From Streptantibioticus parmotrematis (GTDB lineage: Bacteria; Actinomycetota; Actinomycetes; Streptomycetales; Streptomycetaceae): a stretch of 64,000 nucleotides of DNA. Location: NCBI RefSeq assembly GCF_019890615.1, contig NZ_JAINVZ010000009.1, positions 1 through 64,000 of the forward strand. The letters are read 5' to 3'. Shown here piece by piece: positions 41,661-50,014 of the stretch. How positions within the stretch are numbered: the first letter of the stretch is position 1; each line of letters starts with the position of its first letter. The translations under genes and the position numbers were made by a program. A model generated the notes under the pieces. That model was not told where the DNA came from. It worked only from the letters and a program-made list of their open reading frames with translations, and ran no database searches.

Positions 41661-43094
41661 TCAGACCTCGCCCCGCGCCCCGGCGCCACCCTCGGCGTCG
41701 GCCAGTGCCTGCGCGACGCGTTCGAGCCCCACCGACCGCGATGCCTTCACCAGCACGACGTCCCCCGGGCGCAGTTGACTGCGCAGCAGGTCGATCGCCG
41801 TCTCCGCGTCGGACACGTGCACCGACTCCTCACCCCACGAACCCTCGTTCTTGGCGCCCATGTCCAGCCAGGCGGCGGCCTCGCCGCCCACGGCCACGAG
41901 CTTGCTGACGTTGAGCCGGACGGCGAGCCGTCCGATCGCGTCGTGTTCGGCGAGCGAGTCCTCGCCGAGCTCGGCCATCTCGCCCAGCACCGCGAAGGTG
42001 CGGCCCCCCTCGGCCCCCGAGCCCCGGCCCATGGCGACGAGCGCGCGCAGGGCGGCCCTCATGGAGTCGGGATTCGCGTTGTAGGCGTCGTTGACGACCG
42101 TCACGCCGTCCGGCCGTTCGGTGACCTCCATGCGCCAGCGGGACAGCGACCCGGCCTCGGAGAGCGCGGAGGCGATCTCCTCGACGGGCATGCCCAGTTC
42201 ACCGGCGACGGCGGCCGCGGCCAGCGCGTTCGACACGTGGTGCTCACCGTACAGGCGCAGGGTCACCGGGGCGCACCCGGTGGGTGTGCGGAGCGTGAAG
42301 ACTCCACGGCCCTTCGGGTCGAGCCGGACGTCCTCCGCGCGCACGCTCGCCTCCCGCGACTCACCGAAGAAGACGCAGCGGGCCTTGGTGCGGTTCGCCA
42401 TGGCGCGCACGTAGGGGTCGTCGGCGTTGAGCACGGCGATGCCGCCCTCGGCCTCGCCGGGCAGCGACTCGACCATCTCGCCCTTGGCCTGGGCGATCTG
42501 CTCGCGGCCGCCGAACTCGCCGATGTGCGCGGTGCCGACGTTGAGGACGACGCCGATGCGCGGCGGGGTCAGCTCGGTCAGGTACCTGATGTGGCCGATG
42601 CCCCGGGCGCCCATCTCCAGCACGAGGTTGCGGGTGCCGGCCTCGGCGCGCAGCGCGGTGAGCGGCAGCCCGATCTCGTTGTTGAGGCTGCCCTCCGGGT
42701 AGACCGTGGGCCCCAGGCGCGTCAGCAGCTGCGCGATGAGGTCCTTGGTGCTGGTCTTGCCGGAGGAGCCGGTCAGGGCGACGACGTCCACGCCGAGGCG
42801 GCGGATGACCTCCCGGGCGAGCGCGCCCAGCGCCCCCCGGACGTCGTCCACCACGATCGCGGGCACCCCGACGGGCCGGGCGGCCAGCACGGCGACCGCC
42901 CCGGCGGCCACCGCCTGCCCGGCGAAGTCGTGGCCGTCCACGCGCTCCCCGTCGAAGGCGACGAAGAGGCTGCCGGGGACGACCAGGCGCGAGTCGGTCA
43001 GCACCGGCCCGCTGACGGGGAGCGACGGGTCGGGTATGTCGTGCGTGCTCCCGCCGACCGCCTGCGCGACCTCGGCGAGGGTGAGTGCGATCAC
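41661..43094 (-). CDS. murF: MurF, D-Ala-D-Ala adding ligase
   Basis: 477 residues. Mur ligase that completes the UDP-MurNAc pentapeptide with D-Ala-D-Ala. The ATP loop is ALTGSSGKTSTKD; LEMGARGIGHI and NVGTAHIGEFGG are family motifs; the C-terminal domain has VNDAYNANPDSMRAAL. The GTG start overlaps the murE stop by 4 bp (GTGA), and the conserved protein begins IALTLAEVA. Confidence 0.96.
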   Translation of the reverse strand: MIALTLAEVAQAVGGSTHDIPDPSLPVSGPVLTDSRLVVPGSLFVAFDGERVDGHDFAGQAVAAGAVAVLAARPVGVPAIVVDDVRGALGALAREVIRRLGVDVVALTGSSGKTSTKDLIAQLLTRLGPTVYPEGSLNNEIGLPLTALRAEAGTRNLVLEMGARGIGHIRYLTELTPPRIGVVLNVGTAHIGEFGGREQIAQAKGEMVESLPGEAEGGIAVLNADDPYVRAMANRTKARCVFFGESREASVRAEDVRLDPKGRGVFTLRTPTGCAPVTLRLYGEHHVSNALAAAAVAGELGMPVEEIASALSEAGSLSRWRMEVTERPDGVTVVNDAYNANPDSMRAALRALVAMGRGSGAEGGRTFAVLGEMAELGEDSLAEHDAIGRLAVRLNVSKLVAVGGEAAAWLDMGAKNEGSWGEESVHVSDAETAIDLLRSQLRPGDVVLVKASRSVGLERVAQALADAEGGAGARGEV

Positions 43095-44809
43095 TGCTGG
43101 TCGGTGTCCTTCGTTCGGGCGGGGGGACGGACGGCGACGCGGGGTTCCGCGCGTTCGATGGCGGCGCGCAGCACCTCGCGGTCGTCGAAGGGGCGCACGA
43201 CCCCGGCGAGGTCCTGGCCCTGCTCGTGGCCCTTGCCCGCCACCAGCACGATGTCGCCGGGCTGTGCGACGGAGACGGCGGCGGCGATGGCGGCGGCCCG
43301 GTCGGGCTCCACCGTGACGCGTCCACGTTCGTGGGCGGGCACCTCGGCGGCCCCGGCCAGCATGGCGGCCAGGATCGCCAGCGGGTCCTCCGAGCGGGGG
43401 TTGTCGGAGGTCAGGACGGCGGTGTCGGCGAGACGGGCGCAGGCGGCGCCCATCGGGCCGCGCTTTTGCTGGTCGCGGTCGCCGCCGCAGCCGAGCACGA
43501 TGTGGATGCGGCCCTCGGTGACCTTGCGCAGCGCCCGCAGCACGGACTCGACCGCGTCGGTCTTGTGCGCGTAGTCGACGACGGCGAGGTAGTCCTGCCC
43601 GGCGTCGACGCGCTCCAGGCGGCCCGGGACGCCGGGGACGGCGGCGACGCCGTCGGCGGCGGTACGCGGGTCGATCCCGGCGGCGACCAGAGCGGTGATC
43701 GCGGCGAGGGAGTTGGCCACGTTGAACGGGCCGGGCAGCGGGGACCTGGCGGACACGCGTTCGCCGGACGGGCCGACGACGGTGAAGGTGCTGCCCAGCG
43801 GGCCGACCTCGACGTCCTCGGCGCGCCAGTCGGCGTCCGGGTGGCCCTCGGCGGAGAAGCTGACGACGGGGACCGACGCCTCCTTCAGCAGCCGCTGGCC
43901 CCACACGTCGTCGATGTTGACCACACCGAGGCGGCTGCGGCGCGGGGTGAACAGCTGCGCCTTCGCCTGGTAGTAGTCCTCCATGTCCCGGTGGAACTCC
44001 ATGTGCTCCGGGCTGAGGTTGAGGAAGACGCCGACGTCGAAGACGGCGCCGTCGACCCGGCCGAGCACCAGGGCGTGGCTGGAGACCTCCATCGCGACCG
44101 CCCGCACCTCGCGCTCGCGCATCACCGCGAACAGCGCTTGGAGGTCGGTGGCCTCGGGCGTGGTGCGCTCGCTCTTGAGGCGTTCGTCACCGATGCGGGA
44201 CTCGACGGTCCCGATCAGTCCGGTGGCCGGGCCGTGGGCGGCGCGCAGGCCGCCTTCGACGAGGTACGCGGTGGTGGTCTTGCCGGAGGTTCCGGTGATG
44301 CCGATCTGGAGGAGGTCGGCACCGGGCTCGTCGTAGACGGCGGCGGCCAGCGCGCCCATCCGGGAGCGCGGGTCGTCCACCACCAGGACCGGCAGTCCGG
44401 CCGCGGCGGCGCGGTCGCGGCCGGCCGGGTCGGTGAGCACGGCGACGGCGCCGCGTTCGGCCGCCTGGGTGGCGAAGTCGGCGCCGTGGAAGCGGGCGCC
44501 GGGCAGCGCCGCGTAGACGTCGCCGGGGCGCACCGCGCGGGAGTCGTGGGTGATGCCGGTGACCGGCGCGCCGTCCGCGGGGGGCTTCAGGCCGAGCCGT
44601 TCGGCCAGTTCCGCGAGCGGTTTGGGGCGGACCCTGCCGGGCCGGGGCGGACCCGGCACCTTCTCGGGCTCTCGCTGCGAACGGGGGGACTGATCAGCTT
44701 GTGGCACGGCGGTGAGGTTACCGGGCATGGAGGGGTCCGGGCGAAAAGGGGCCGGGCCCGCGGACTCGCCGCCGGTTCCCGGTCCGGGTGGATTTGTGAT
44801 GGTTGTCAC
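43091..44809 (-). CDS. murE: MurE, diaminopimelate-adding ligase
   Basis: 572 residues, longer than the usual 490-500 because of an N-terminal Pro/Gly-rich extension of about 60 residues. The ATP loop is GITGTSGKTTT. The third-residue specificity motif reads DNPRSEDP, the form that selects diaminopimelate over lysine; streptomycetes use LL-DAP. The start is GTG; an ATG at residue 28 is an alternative but would remove only linker sequence. Confidence 0.95.
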   Translation of the reverse strand: MTTITNPPGPGTGGESAGPAPFRPDPSMPGNLTAVPQADQSPRSQREPEKVPGPPRPGRVRPKPLAELAERLGLKPPADGAPVTGITHDSRAVRPGDVYAALPGARFHGADFATQAAERGAVAVLTDPAGRDRAAAAGLPVLVVDDPRSRMGALAAAVYDEPGADLLQIGITGTSGKTTTAYLVEGGLRAAHGPATGLIGTVESRIGDERLKSERTTPEATDLQALFAVMREREVRAVAMEVSSHALVLGRVDGAVFDVGVFLNLSPEHMEFHRDMEDYYQAKAQLFTPRRSRLGVVNIDDVWGQRLLKEASVPVVSFSAEGHPDADWRAEDVEVGPLGSTFTVVGPSGERVSARSPLPGPFNVANSLAAITALVAAGIDPRTAADGVAAVPGVPGRLERVDAGQDYLAVVDYAHKTDAVESVLRALRKVTEGRIHIVLGCGGDRDQQKRGPMGAACARLADTAVLTSDNPRSEDPLAILAAMLAGAAEVPAHERGRVTVEPDRAAAIAAAVSVAQPGDIVLVAGKGHEQGQDLAGVVRPFDDREVLRAAIERAEPRVAVRPPARTKDTDQQ

Positions 44810-44815
44810 GACGGC

Positions 44816-46807
44816 TCACTGCTTCCCCGGCTGGAACTCGACGGGGATCCTCGGCGCCGGCTTGCCGGACGGCGGCACCTGGAGCGATTTGAGCGCGAAC
44901 TCCATGACCTGCTTGAAGACCGGGCCGCAGATGCTGCCGCCGAAGTAGCTGCCGACGGTGGGGTTCTGGATCACGCAGGAGACGGTGACGCGGGGGTCGT
45001 CGGCGGGCGCGAAGCCCATGAAGGACGAGGTGTAGCCGTGGTAGCGGCCGGTGGCCGGATCCACCCGGTTGGCCGTGCCGGTCTTGCCCGCCACCTGGTA
45101 CCCGGGGATCTGCGCCATGGTGCCGGTGCCGTTCTCGCTGCCGACGACGGTCTCCAGCATCTCGGTCACCTGTTTGGCGGTGTTGGCGCTCACCACCCGG
45201 GTGCGCGGCGGCGCGGGGGCGGGCGTGTACTGCCCGTCGGGTCCCGTGGTGCCCTCGACCAGGCTGGGCTGCACCCGTACGCCGCCGTTGGCGATGGTGG
45301 AGTAGATCGAGGTGGCCTGCAGGGCGTTGACGGACAGGCCCTGGCCGAACGGGATCGTGTACTGCTGCGAGGTGCTCCACTTGCCCGGCGGCGCCAGGAT
45401 GCCGGGCGTCTCGCCGGGGAAGTCCAGCCCGGTCGGCTGCCCGATGCCGAACTTGTGCAGGTAGGAGTAGAGGATCTGGTCCGACTGCTGCTGCGTCTTG
45501 CCCAGCTGGCCGGTCGCCTCGATGGTGCCGATGTTGCTGGACTGCGCGAGGACGCCGCTGAGGGTGAGGTACTCGGTGGGGTGCGGTTCGTCGTCGTGGA
45601 AGACCCGGTCGCCGCGTTGCAGGGTGCCGGGGACCACCACGTGGGTGAGCGGGGTCGCCACGCCCTCGTTGATGATCGCGGACATCGACATCAGCTTGCT
45701 GACGCTGCCCGGTTCGTACGCGTCCTGCAGGGCGGGGTTGCCCAGCGAGGCGGGGCTGGCGTCGCCGAGGTCGTTGGGGTCAAAGCCGGGCGCGTCGGCC
45801 ATCGCGAGGACCTGGCCGCTGCGGGAGTCCTGGACGATGACGTAGCCGCGGTCCGCCTTGGACTTCTTCACCTGGGCGGCGATGGCGCTCTGGGCGGCCC
45901 ACTGGATGTTCCGGTCGAGGGTGAGCCGTATGTCGGTACCGGGCACCGGGGCCTGTTCCTGGATGCCCGCGGTGGGGATGACCTGGCCGCCGGAGGTGGC
46001 GACCGTCATCTTGCCGGGTTTCCCGGTGAGTTCGCTGTTGTACTGGGCCTCCAGGCCGCCCGCGCCCTGCTGCTGCCCGTTGACGAAGCCGAGCACCCCG
46101 GCGGCGAGGTCGCCGTTGGGGTAGACGCGTTTGCTGGTGGGTTCCGACAGCACGCCCGCCAGCAGTCCCGGGTCGCCCTGCTTGGCGGCCTGCGCGGCGA
46201 GCTTCGCCTGAAGGGCCTTGACCTGGTTCCACACCTGCGGGGTGACGCCGTGGGCGAGCACCACGTAGCGCGACTTGGGGGTGGCCAGCAGCCCGGCGAT
46301 GGTCTGCTCGTCGCCGCCGATGACCGGGGCGAGCGCGGCGGCGGCCTGCTGCGGGGCGTCGGAGATCTTCGCCTGGTCGGGGGTGAACAGGTAGGGGTCG
46401 GCGGTGATGTCGTACGCGTCGACGCTGGCCGCCAGCTCCGCCCCGTCGCGGTCGGTGATGTCGCCGCGGGTGGCCGCGAGCTGCACCGGCTGGTAGCGGT
46501 TGAGGTCGGCCTTGGCGTCGTAGCCCGCGGAGTCCACCACCTGGACCTGGAAGAGCCGCACGCCGAAGGTCGCGAGCACCAGCGCCAGCAGCACGCTGAC
46601 CAGCCGCAGCCGGGGCTTGGGCCGCCCGAGCCGCAGCCGGGCCGGGCCGCCGGGCCTGCGGGGCGGGCCGGGCGGACGCCGCGGCGGTCCCGCGGGCCTG
46701 CGCGGGCGTCCCACCGACGCCTGCCGGGGCGTCGGCCGCGCGGGCCGGGCCGGGCGCGCCGGTCGGGGCAGGTGCCCGCCGGGCCGGGGGCGTTTCTGCT
46801 CGGTCAC
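44816..46807 (-). CDS. ftsI: FtsI/PBP3-type class B penicillin-binding protein
   Basis: 663 residues. A Pro/Arg-rich cytoplasmic tail of about 70 residues precedes one transmembrane helix (VSVLLALVLATFGVRLFQV), the non-catalytic dimerisation domain (ATRGDITDRDGAELA) and the transpeptidase domain. Active site: Ser368 and Lys371 in EPGSVSKLM, the SSN motif in AQSSNIG, and Lys575 in AGKTGTAN. It cross-links septal peptidoglycan with FtsW. GTG 46805-46807 has an AAGGTGAT site and starts 4 bp after the ftsL stop. Confidence 0.95.
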   Translation of the reverse strand: MTEQKRPRPGGHLPRPARPARPARPTPRQASVGRPRRPAGPPRRPPGPPRRPGGPARLRLGRPKPRLRLVSVLLALVLATFGVRLFQVQVVDSAGYDAKADLNRYQPVQLAATRGDITDRDGAELAASVDAYDITADPYLFTPDQAKISDAPQQAAAALAPVIGGDEQTIAGLLATPKSRYVVLAHGVTPQVWNQVKALQAKLAAQAAKQGDPGLLAGVLSEPTSKRVYPNGDLAAGVLGFVNGQQQGAGGLEAQYNSELTGKPGKMTVATSGGQVIPTAGIQEQAPVPGTDIRLTLDRNIQWAAQSAIAAQVKKSKADRGYVIVQDSRSGQVLAMADAPGFDPNDLGDASPASLGNPALQDAYEPGSVSKLMSMSAIINEGVATPLTHVVVPGTLQRGDRVFHDDEPHPTEYLTLSGVLAQSSNIGTIEATGQLGKTQQQSDQILYSYLHKFGIGQPTGLDFPGETPGILAPPGKWSTSQQYTIPFGQGLSVNALQATSIYSTIANGGVRVQPSLVEGTTGPDGQYTPAPAPPRTRVVSANTAKQVTEMLETVVGSENGTGTMAQIPGYQVAGKTGTANRVDPATGRYHGYTSSFMGFAPADDPRVTVSCVIQNPTVGSYFGGSICGPVFKQVMEFALKSLQVPPSGKPAPRIPVEFQPGKQ

Positions 46808-46811
46808 GCGA

Positions 46812-47390
46812 TCACCTTGCCGAGGCCGGGGAGTCGGTGCGGCCCGCGGACGAGGCCGATGAGGCGGATGCGGCGGACGAGGCGGGCGGCAGGGCGGGCA
46901 CCGGTGCCGAGGCCGCCGCCCGCGACGACGGGCCGATGGACTGCGCGGGCGCGCCCGGCCCCGACGGTGCCTGCGAGGTGGACGGCGGCGCGGCGGGCGC
47001 GGTGGCGGGCGGCGGGGCCGGCGGGGCACTGGCCTCGCCCGGCACGCCGCGCACGGCGCCGCCGGGCATCAGGAAGGCCGGGTTGCCGCCGGGCACCATG
47101 CCGAGCTTGCGGGCCTGTGCGGCCAGCGAGCCGGGCGCCGACTCCTGGTCGACCTGCTGCTGGAGCGCCTGTTCCTCGTCGGTGAGCTGCTTGGTCTGCT
47201 TCTTGTAGTTCGACAGCTGGAACGCGCCCTGGTTGACGGAGGCGTTGAGCAGCAGCAGCGAGATCAGGCCGGTGGCCAGCAGGGCGACGACCAGCAGCAC
47301 GAACGGGGTGCGGGCCGCGCGCCCGCCGCGTCCGCCGCCCAGGACCCGGGCGCGCGCCGGGCGGGGCGGGCGCGGGGGCGCGCCGCTCAC
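46812..47390 (-). CDS. ftsL: FtsL-like septum protein
   Basis: 192 residues: short basic N terminus, a single transmembrane helix ([21 protein letters not shown]), a leucine-zipper-like coiled coil ([25 protein letters not shown]), and a long Ala/Pro/Ser tail with no fold. Position between rsmH and ftsI is diagnostic. Stop of rsmH overlaps its GTG start by 4 bp. The disordered tail of about 90 residues is longer than in most FtsL proteins. Confidence 0.9.
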
Positions 47391-48361
47391 CGGCGGCCCC
47401 CGTCGTCCGCGACGTCCTCGCGGACGCGTTCGGCTCCGCGCAGCCGGGCCGGGGCGGCCCGGCGGTTGGCGGCGATCTCCTCCTCGGTGGGCAGTTCGGC
47501 GCCGCGCGTCAGCAGTTTCAGCCGGGGCTGGTAGCGCTCCGGGACGATGGGCAGGCCGGGCGGCGCGGTGTGTCCGGCGCCGGCCGTGAGGACCTGCTTG
47601 ACGAGGCGGTCCTCCAGCGAGTGGTACGACAGCACGGCGATCCGGCCGCCGACCGCGAGCGCGGACACGGCCGCCGGGATCGCCCGTTCCAGTACCGCGA
47701 GTTCGCCGTTGACCTCGATGCGCAGCGCCTGGAAGGTGCGCTTGGCGGGGTTGCCGCCGGTGCGTTTGGCGGCCTGCGGCAGCGCGTCGCGGATCAGCTC
47801 GACCAGCCGGGCGCTGTTGGTGAACGGCTCCTTCTCCCGTTCCCTGACGATCGCCTCGACGATCTTGCGGGCGAACTTCTCCTCGCCGTAGGCGCGCAGC
47901 ACCCGGACCAGTTCGCCGGGCGGGTAGGTGTTGAGGACCTCCGCGGCGCTGATGCCGGTGTTCTGGTCCATGCGCATGTCCAGCGGCGCGTCCTGCGCGT
48001 AGGCGAAGCCGCGGTCGGCCTGGTCGAGTTGCATGGAGGAGACGCCCAGGTCGAACAGGACGCCCTGGACCCGGGGCACGCCCAGCCGGTCGAGGACGTC
48101 GGGCAGTTCGTCGTAGACCGCGTGCACCAGGGTGGCCCGCTCGCCGAACGGGGCGAGCCGCTCACCGGCGAGCCGGAGGGCGGCCGGGTCGCGGTCGAGG
48201 GCGATCAGGCGGGCGGCCGGGAAGGTGGACAGCAGTGCCTCGCTGTGGCCGCCGAGGCCGAGGGTGGTGTCCACGACGATCGCGCCGGGCTCGGCGAGCG
48301 CCGGGGCGAGCAGGTCCAGGCACCGCTGGAGCATGACCGGGACGTGGAGCGGCTCGGTCAT
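47387..48361 (-). CDS. rsmH: RsmH, 16S rRNA C1402 N4-methyltransferase
   Basis: 324 residues. SAM-binding motifs: [27 protein letters not shown] and [11 protein letters not shown]; then [27 protein letters not shown] and [12 protein letters not shown]. It methylates cytidine 1402 in the ribosomal P site. ATG 48359-48361 is chosen for the GAGGGGGTG site and conserved start; longer frames upstream lack support. Confidence 0.96.
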
Positions 48362-48468
48362 CGTCGGCACCCCCTCGCGGCGGCGCCGCGGCGCGCCCTG
48401 CGTACGGCGGCGCCGGAACGCGGCCCGAGCCCTCGGGACGGGGACGACGCGTGACTGGTGGTGCTCAT
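48358..48468 (-). CDS. Candidate 36-aa ORF translationally coupled to rsmH
   Basis: ATG at 48466-48468 with an AGAGGG site 7 nt upstream; the stop TGA overlaps the rsmH ATG (ATGA). The peptide ([17 protein letters not shown] then Arg/Ala-rich) has no recognisable motif. It may be a leader ORF that couples translation into rsmH, or chance. I rate it as possible only. Confidence 0.3.
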
Positions 48469-48691
48469 CTGGCCCTCTGATCGAACTGTGCCCTTCACGG
48501 TGCCCTTTGTACGGGGTGGAGGGCCTGGACGTACCGCCGGGTCCCCGCCCGCTCGGAGGGAAGGAGCCGGCTGGCACCGGGGAAGTAGCACCAGCGAGCC
48601 GGGAGCGGGAGGAGGCCTGGCGTCACGTACAAGGGAGCGCGGGGCGTGTGGGCGCCGCGTCGTCTCGATGCGGTGGCGTGCCGGGACGCCG
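48362..48691. other. 330-bp spacer between mraZ and rsmH
   Basis: Apart from the candidate 36-aa frame, this stretch shows no convincing gene. Near 48480-48515 there are repeated GTGCCCTT-like words (rc AAGGGCAC twice, AGGGCC). It may hold a second promoter for rsmH and the downstream dcw genes. Confidence 0.4.
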
Positions 48692-49123
48692 TCACACTAT
48701 GCCGGGGAGCACCTCCTGCGACAGGGCCGAGAAGCTCTCCTCCTGGCCCGCCAGATAGTGGTCCCAGGCGGCGGCGGCCCAGATCTCGACCCGGTTGTTG
48801 GCACCGATGACCGTACAGTCCCTGGTCAGTCCCGCGTAGTCGCGCAGCGGCTGGGGGACGGTGATGCGGCCCTGCTTGTCCGGCACCTCGTCGGTGGCCC
48901 CGGCGAACAGCACCCGCATGTAGTCGCGGGCGGCCTTGGAGGTCACCGGCGCCTGCCGCAGCTGCTCGGTCACCGAGCGGAACTCGGTCAGCGGCCACAC
49001 GCACAGGCACCGCTCCTGGCCCTTGGTGACGACCAGGCCGTCCGCGAGCTGGTCGCGGAACCTGGCCGGGAGGACGAGCCTGCTCTTGTCGTCCAGTCGC
49101 GGCGCGTACGTCCCGAGGAACAC
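48692..49123 (-). CDS. mraZ: MraZ, transcriptional regulator of the dcw cluster
   Basis: 143 residues with two SpoVT/AbrB-like swapped-hairpin repeats: [21 protein letters not shown] at the N terminus and [23 protein letters not shown] in the second half, each with the DxK/QGR DNA-binding pattern. MraZ forms ring-shaped oligomers that bind repeats in its own promoter. GTG 49121-49123 is chosen because the family begins FLGT and a GGGAGGTG site lies just upstream. Four 10-bp-phased repeats lie 35-68 bp before it. Confidence 0.93.
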
Positions 49124-49450
49124 CCGCACCTCCCGCACGCTCGCAGCCGTCAGCCTCCCACTTCGCGCCACTTTACTCCACACCCCACCACGGTCAACCG
49201 CGGACGAGACCCGTACGGGTCTTGTTCACCGGGGCGAAATCGCAGGCAGGAGTGGCGAGGAGGGATTATGCGGCCGGGTCCGCGCGCGCCGCGCGCCGGA
49301 CCGTGCGCCACCGGCCGTGGTTCACCCGGACGTCTCAGCGCCGCTCACACCTGTGGGCTAGCTCACGGCTCGCTCGATTGACGCCTGGGTTTCCGTTTTC
49401 GTCCCCCACCAGGACGAGACGCCGCGCCGCGCGCCGTCTACGGTCGTGTC
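49124..49450. promoter_or_regulatory. Divergent intergenic region mraZ / carbonic anhydrase
   Basis: Besides the MraZ boxes this region contains a perfect 16-bp palindrome AGACCCGTACGGGTCT at 49207-49222, just upstream of the mraZ -35 element. On the other strand a TACGGT hexamer (49439-49444) lies 6 nt before the carbonic anhydrase ATG. Nothing gene-like is seen between about 49230 and 49430. Confidence 0.6.
49158..49197 (-). promoter_or_regulatory. mraZ promoter with four phased MraZ boxes
   Basis: Read on the minus strand, GTGG occurs at exact 10-bp intervals: complements CCAC start at 49158, 49168, 49178 and 49188. A -35-like TTGACC (49192-49197) is followed after 16 bp by a -10-like TAAAGT (49170-49175), so the boxes cover the promoter core. 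MraZ proteins are known to bind direct TGGG-type repeats with the same period upstream of mraZ. Autoregulation is inferred. Confidence 0.8.
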
Positions 49451-50014
49451 ATGTCGATATCTGCATCCGCGTCCTCCACGTCCTCCGCGTCACCCGCCGC
49501 CTCGTCCGCCTCCGCCGAAGGGTCGGTGATCGACAGCCTCGTCGAGGCCAACCGCCGCTACGCCGAGGGCTTCACCGACCCGGGCATGGACGCCCGTCCG
49601 GTGCGCAAGGTGGCCGTGGTCGCCTGCATGGACGCCCGCATCGACCTGCACAAGGCGCTCGGTCTGCGGCTCGGCGACTGCCACACCATCCGCAACGCGG
49701 GCGGTGTCGTCACCGACGACACCATCCGTTCGCTGGCGATCAGTCAGCGCGCCCTGGGCACCCGCTCGGTCGTGCTGATCCACCACACCAACTGCGGCCT
49801 GGAGTCGCTGACCGAGGGCTTCCGCACCGACCTGGAGCACGAGGTGGGCCAGCGTCCCACCTGGGCGGTGGAGTCCTTCACCGACGTGGACCAGGACGTG
49901 CGCCAGTCCATGGCCCGGGTGCGCACCTCCCCGTTCCTGGCGCTCACCGACGAGGTGCGCGGCTTCGTCTTCGACGTCCACACCGGCCTGCTGCGGGAAA
50001 TCACGGCCGAGTAA
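49451..50014 (+). CDS. Beta-class carbonic anhydrase
   Basis: 187 residues. Zinc ligands are Cys59 (in VVACMDARID), His112 and Cys115 (in IHHTNCGLE), with the Asp61/Arg63 dyad adjacent, as in type II or Rv1284-like small beta carbonic anhydrases. It interconverts carbon dioxide and bicarbonate. The N-terminal 25 residues are Ser/Ala-rich and probably disordered. The mRNA may be leaderless (TACGGT 6 nt before the ATG, no Shine-Dalgarno). Confidence 0.92.
   Translation: MSISASASSTSSASPAASSASAEGSVIDSLVEANRRYAEGFTDPGMDARPVRKVAVVACMDARIDLHKALGLRLGDCHTIRNAGGVVTDDTIRSLAISQRALGTRSVVLIHHTNCGLESLTEGFRTDLEHEVGQRPTWAVESFTDVDQDVRQSMARVRTSPFLALTDEVRGFVFDVHTGLLREITAE

Follow-up and report, generated by a model that had tools for sequence, protein, structure and literature searches.

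The dcw cluster of Streptantibioticus parmotrematis lies on the minus strand of the window, the whole 64,000-nucleotide stretch of DNA that was analysed, where mraZ and its promoter are followed by an mraW RNA element and by rsmH, ftsL, a PBP gene and murE (Table 1). The PBP gene bears the FtsI name because of gene order, no model having matched it above its cut-off, and a carbonic-anhydrase-like gene upstream of mraZ points away from the cluster. The start of mraZ was placed at the GTG at 49123, because most aligned relatives have ATG at the same codon.

Table 1. Features of the mraZ promoter and the dcw cluster in the window. Counts refer to promoters of family members with (MraZ+) and without (MraZ-) MraZ.
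Feature	Position	Strand	Evidence and remarks
-35 element, TTGACC	49192-49197	-	direct reading; promoter scan
Putative MraZ box 1, GTGG	49188-49191	-	adjoins -35, in spacer; 21/21 MraZ+, 1/28 MraZ-
Putative MraZ box 2, GTGG	49178-49181	-	in spacer, before -10; 21/21 MraZ+, 19/28 MraZ-
Putative MraZ box 3, GTGG	49168-49171	-	overlaps -10; 21/21 MraZ+, 3/28 MraZ-
Putative MraZ box 4, GTGG	49158-49161	-	near presumed +1; GTGG or ATGG in 21/21 MraZ+, 2/28 MraZ-
-10 element, TAAAGT	49170-49175	-	16-bp spacer to -35; promoter scan
Putative ribosome binding site for mraZ, GGGAGG	49129-49134	-	from sequence
mraZ	48692-49123	-	TIGR00242, 126 bits (cut-off 98.35); PF02381
mraW RNA element	48519-48634	-	between mraZ and rsmH; RF01746 full length, 37.5 bits, E 8.2e-6
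rsmH (mraW)	47387-48361	-	first gene after mraZ; TIGR00006, 305.4 bits, over cut-off
Rest of dcw run in the window	43091-47390	-	NCBIfam matches
ftsL	46812-47390	-	NCBIfam match
PBP/FtsI-like gene	within ORF 44816-47029	-	no model above its cut-off
murE	43091-44809	-	NCBIfam match

The product of mraZ scores 134.1 bits against PF02381 (cut-off 23), with two PF02381 stretches, and in an alignment of 18 sequences D12, K14 and R16 as well as Q85, G86 and R87 are invariant; we take such a DxK.R-type signature to be the hallmark of MraZ half-domains, both of which are present. A predicted model of the monomer (pLDDT 82.5) matches the MraZ structures of M. pneumoniae and M. genitalium (entries 1n0f, 1n0e, 9qlg, 9sz7 and 9r4j) with Z of 17.9-20.4 over 137-138 residues and rmsd of 3.0-3.5, the next entry having Z 5.7. 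The product is a member of the MraZ family, with a predicted MraZ fold.

In front of this gene, direct reading of the minus strand finds four GTGG with an exact period of 10 bp from 49191 to 49158, the strand running from 49197 downward as TTGACC GTGGTGGGGT GTGGAGTAAA GTGGCGCGAA GTGGGAGGCT. The original prediction, whose interval of 49158-49197 takes in the -35 element, had described four GTGG in strict 10-bp period on the mraZ strand, filling the spacer between TTGACC and TAAAGT and continuing downstream. Both points are borne out: the spacer contains boxes 1 and 2, and boxes 3 and 4 lie beyond it, the GT of box 3 being the final two bases of the -10 hexamer. TTGACC/TAAAGT is the sole sigma-70-like site that the promoter scan returned within 48350-49460 (shuffle mean 0.0), and, judged from the sequence, transcription of mraZ would start at about 49163-49161. 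Just upstream of the mraZ -35 element there is also a near-perfect 22-bp palindrome (49204-49225, arms ACGAGACCCGTA and TACGGGTCTTGT), which is partly present in the nearest relative, L034, and absent from the other streptomycete loci inspected.

Four GTGG at spacing 10 arose in none of 20,000 first-order Markov sequences drawn from a model of the 324-bp intergenic region, and four at any spacing of 5-20 arose in two of 20,000 from the same model. Throughout the 7.4-Mb genome the exact four-box pattern matches once, at the mraZ site, and the reversed pattern four times; chance thus produces an occasional array of this kind in a GC-rich genome, so that bare pattern counts are weak evidence, and it is position and conservation that carry the case. 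Three-box arrays number six, of which two are the mraZ site counted in overlapping halves, and the reversed pattern gives 15. The idea of other MraZ targets in the genome was dropped; the genome-wide three- and four-box searches gave neither a second MraZ operator nor any further array beyond chance. This single candidate operator in the genome resembles the one-site situation reported for M. genitalium (PMC8475190). Among the three-box arrays, the mraZ site and one GTGGTCACC-type tandem repeat are the only ones common to the second genome of the genus. Both genomes of the genus have, at L241 (G000) and L242 (G001), a tandem repeat of GTGGTCACCGGTGG type in which three GTGG stand at spacing 10.

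The phasing extends well beyond the genus. Within 200 bp upstream of 62 named mraZ loci, all 62 have two or more GTGG at spacing 10 and 44 have three or more; of the remaining spacings between 5 and 20, only 20, twice the period, gave three GTGG, in 2/62. The 30 streptomycete-like loci (L034-L060, L087, L093 and L095, assigned from titles and similarity) include 22 with four GTGG and seven more with ATGG as the fourth box. Across the phylum, 119 genomes were drawn, of which 115 had MraZ, and in the best-scoring 30 loci, which are not a random sample, at least three GTGG at spacing 10 occur in 16, or in 23 if ATGG is allowed; spacing 5 gives two loci and the remaining spacings none. The original prediction had staked itself on the 10-bp phasing being conserved in relatives; this comparison was run, and conserved it is.

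Co-occurrence with the gene is complete within the family. Of 200 genomes from the same family (Streptomycetaceae), 54 have a TIGR00242 match, mraZ being missing from the other 146, and the pattern TTGNCNGTGGN6GTGGNGTANNGTGG matches once each in 54 of the 200, its reversed control matching in none. The two sets of 54 genomes are identical, and each of the 54 carries the pattern on the strand of its mraZ match and 30-185 nt upstream of it. Its presence in genomes with MraZ is partly by design, because it was drawn from their loci; the single occurrence per genome and the absence elsewhere are not products of that design. A looser pattern, of four boxes and no promoter, proved unspecific and was set aside, as it matched 113/200 genomes, mostly in simple repeats outside mraZ.

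The MraZ-less genomes appear to have lost the gene cleanly. PF02381 matches occur in 67 of the 200 family genomes, 13 more than the 54, and these 13 were rejected as MraZ: each is a single match of about 38-40 residues (E 6.5e-5 to 8.3e-4) inside a longer frame, and a similar weak match of 50 residues also occurs in one MraZ-carrying genome. The regions around rsmH were then compared in 57 genomes, 54 of the family (21 with MraZ, 33 without) and three outgroups; G149, one of the 58 genomes searched, had no rsmH match and was left out. A tblastn search with MraZ recovers the gene in 24/24 MraZ-carrying regions, three of them outgroups, and finds no mraZ remnant under E 1e-3 in the 33 MraZ-less regions. 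In these genomes (L205-L237) mraZ was apparently removed cleanly between the promoter and the mraW RNA. On the 57-genome tree the losses fall in at least two clades, perhaps four, the placement of the single-genome branches g107 and g112 deciding between about two and about four, and box decay therefore has independent replicates.

In this comparison, the promoter bears all four boxes (with GTGG or ATGG as box 4) in each of the 21 family members with MraZ, and a recognisable promoter stands before rsmH in 28 of the 33 without. In the remaining five regions (L223, L225, L229, L236 and L237) neither the regex nor a looser regex found a promoter, and they were excluded from the column counts. Boxes 1 to 4 survive in 1, 19, 3 and 2 of the 28 promoters, respectively. 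Genus g2, which is without MraZ, has TTGACC-N16-TAAAGT upstream of 26/29 rsmH loci, and in these 26 promoters box 1 is gone throughout, box 3 has become GTGA in 21 and box 4 is no longer GTGG in 21; a family-wide search with the bare promoter gave the same picture of promoter kept and boxes decayed in a second MraZ-less genus, g100. Part of the apparent conservation of the -35 and -10 columns comes from the search regex, which demanded both; TTGAC is present in 20/21 relatives with MraZ and TTGCC in one.

Counted as parsimony changes on a tree of RsmH and the FtsI-like protein, in which branches with and without MraZ have total lengths of 3.58 and 4.03, the 16 box columns changed twice on MraZ-carrying branches and 58 times on MraZ-less ones, plus four times on stems. 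The 12 spacer columns that follow box 1 and box 4 changed 66 and 74 times, respectively, plus seven times on stems. With stem changes added to the MraZ-less side, 2/62 against 66/81 gives a Fisher p of 7e-11, a value that overstates independence because the sequences are related and the losses number only about two to four. Since the box columns decay without MraZ while the spacers change about equally, it is MraZ, not the promoter, that holds the boxes. Conserved phasing, perfect co-occurrence with mraZ and selective decay without MraZ strongly support, at the level of sequence, the identification of the repeats as MraZ boxes that the original prediction had put forward.

The array, its phasing and conservation, its company with mraZ, its decay after loss and its uniqueness in the genome were computed directly. 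We hypothesize, with a probability of about 90%, that the GTGG boxes are an MraZ operator laid over the core of a sigma-70-type dcw promoter, giving negative feedback. MraZ made from the first gene would bind successive boxes, one per helix turn, and would cover the DNA from just behind the -35 element to about +4, excluding RNA polymerase; negative feedback would then act on mraZ and the co-transcribed genes, such that the cluster limits its own expression. Physical binding by MraZ, repression and reach along the cluster are what we infer here, autorepression, as put forward in the original prediction, being the natural reading because the operator spans -35 to +1. A protein bound over the spacer, the -10 element and the start point normally excludes polymerase. 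MraZ is reported as a repressor in M. genitalium and E. coli (PMC8475190, PMC7761207), and it likely represses the dcw promoter here. Repression is nevertheless no safe assumption, because MraZ activates in N. elongata, where deletion of mraZ is reported to lower, and its overexpression to raise, the first dcw genes (PMC9395523). The boxes could thus be an MraZ operator through which MraZ activates or tunes the promoter instead of repressing it, and an array right behind the -35 element could hold polymerase too; against this stand the coverage of spacer, -10 element and start point by boxes 2-4 and the repression reported in the other two species, and we consider activation or tuning unlikely.

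Alternatively, the GTGG run may be nothing but the promoter itself (spacer, -10 context and discriminator), unrelated to MraZ, as might be suggested by the persistence of box 2 and of the GTG of box 3 in most MraZ-less promoters. Such a reading is very improbable, and already largely refuted, as boxes 1, 3 and 4 are present in 21/21 promoters with MraZ against 1, 3 and 2 of 28 without, and the hexamers, which the regex demanded, remain where the boxes decay. Box 2 does call for an explanation of its own. GTGG persists there in 19/28 MraZ-less promoters (for example in L205-L214, L216-L218, L220 and L221) and in 24/26 of the g2 promoters, the two sets having at least one genome in common; among the sampled genera it is lost throughout g111. 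Persistence without MraZ indicates that something else also maintains part of the array: box 2 probably also serves a promoter function, or perhaps another protein binds it. The constraint that depends on MraZ is not confined to GTGG, as CGCGAA, which links box 3 to box 4, is nearly as frozen as the boxes, with two changes on MraZ-carrying and 15 on MraZ-less branches, plus three on stems; MraZ or the initiating polymerase would seem, from these columns, to read more than GTGG.

Within the preferred reading of the boxes as an MraZ operator, a tentative and rather doubtful extension is that operator and dcw promoter form one composite element, whose rewriting after loss recurs in at least two lineages as compensation, with box 2 kept as part of the promoter. 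Changes at two positions, the T of box 1 and the final G of box 3, are each placed on two separate stems. After MraZ loss, box 1 would recurrently drop its T, and box 3 would go from GTGG to GTGA in the discriminator, just past the -10 element. If this recurrence is adaptive, compensation would be built in: once the repressor is gone, selection would retune the naked promoter.

Two further explanations concern what the G-rich repeats might bind or form. A parallel G-quadruplex has been reported in the S. aureus mraZ promoter region (PMC11796246), and the G-rich strand could in the same way fold as a transcription-regulating quadruplex. We find this highly improbable here, for a quadruplex needs neither the T of the boxes, conserved in 21/21, nor the exact 10-bp phase, likewise conserved; the minus strand at 49152-49197 has only two runs of at least three G, short of the canonical four such runs with loops of up to 7 nt, and the 8-nt linkers between GG pairs would allow a weak two-layer form at best. 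That another regulator binds the repeats and was lost by coincidence alongside mraZ is scarcely credible: co-occurrence and decay show linkage, not contact, but such a regulator would need to have been lost in the same 146/200 genomes, and in other phyla direct GTG repeats before mraZ have been published as MraZ sites (PMC8475190, PMC7761207).

MraZ sites built of repeats are already known, one of them with four repeats at a 10-base period, and so is a four-box MraZ complex. Eraso et al. are said to have described in 2014 the binding of E. coli MraZ to three repeats upstream of mraZ, one fewer than in the present array, with autorepression. Four 7-nt direct repeats with 3-nt spacers precede mraZ in Burkholderia cenocepacia and were gel-shifted with MraZ, as reported in PMC7761207; that site and the present array agree in repeat number, in the 10-base period and in preceding mraZ. 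They differ in position: the B. cenocepacia repeats lie downstream of the -10 element over the start point, whereas the present array begins after the -35 element and runs through the -10 element. The E. coli repeats, as cited in the same paper, also lie downstream of the -10 element over the start point, whereas the present operator is set into the -35/-10 region. In M. genitalium and other Mollicutes, direct repeats of the form AAAGTG[T/G] are reported at a single site per genome before mraZ, and an M. genitalium mraZ mutant shows derepression (PMC8475190); only boxes 3 and 4 of the present array have AA before GTG. The PDB entry 9sz7, by cryo-EM and from M. genitalium, is titled "MraZ in complex with 4 box promoter".

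What is new is the embedding of the operator in the promoter core, together with its decay, resolved base by base, after natural loss of the regulator, the promoter being left standing. Among the longitudinally dividing Neisseriaceae a lineage is reported to have dropped mraZ with changed dcw expression, and the accessible parts of that paper (PMC9395523) give no account of operator decay. Our search of open-licence papers, mostly by titles and abstracts, found none that deals with MraZ boxes in Streptomycetaceae or with an operator decaying once mraZ has been lost. MraZ is widespread, its benefit is unclear and the published signs of its regulation conflict. The family offers a natural experiment, in which 54 of 200 genomes keep MraZ and its operator and many others have dropped the gene and kept the promoter, such that promoters with and without MraZ are comparable base by base. 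Actinobacterial dcw promoters can also be annotated with the boxes as a simple motif.

The original prediction extended control by MraZ to the whole cluster, which is plausible because rsmH, ftsL, the PBP gene and murE come next on the same strand. The mraW RNA element, between mraZ and rsmH, lies inside the span of this supposed control. Its score in the window is under the RF01746 gathering score of 50, which two of the 12 regions scanned pass, those of the relatives L191 (51.7) and L221 (50.7). At E up to 0.01, RF01746 matches in five of six MraZ-carrying and three of six MraZ-less loci among these 12, and the leader sequence is still recognisable in many MraZ-less regions.
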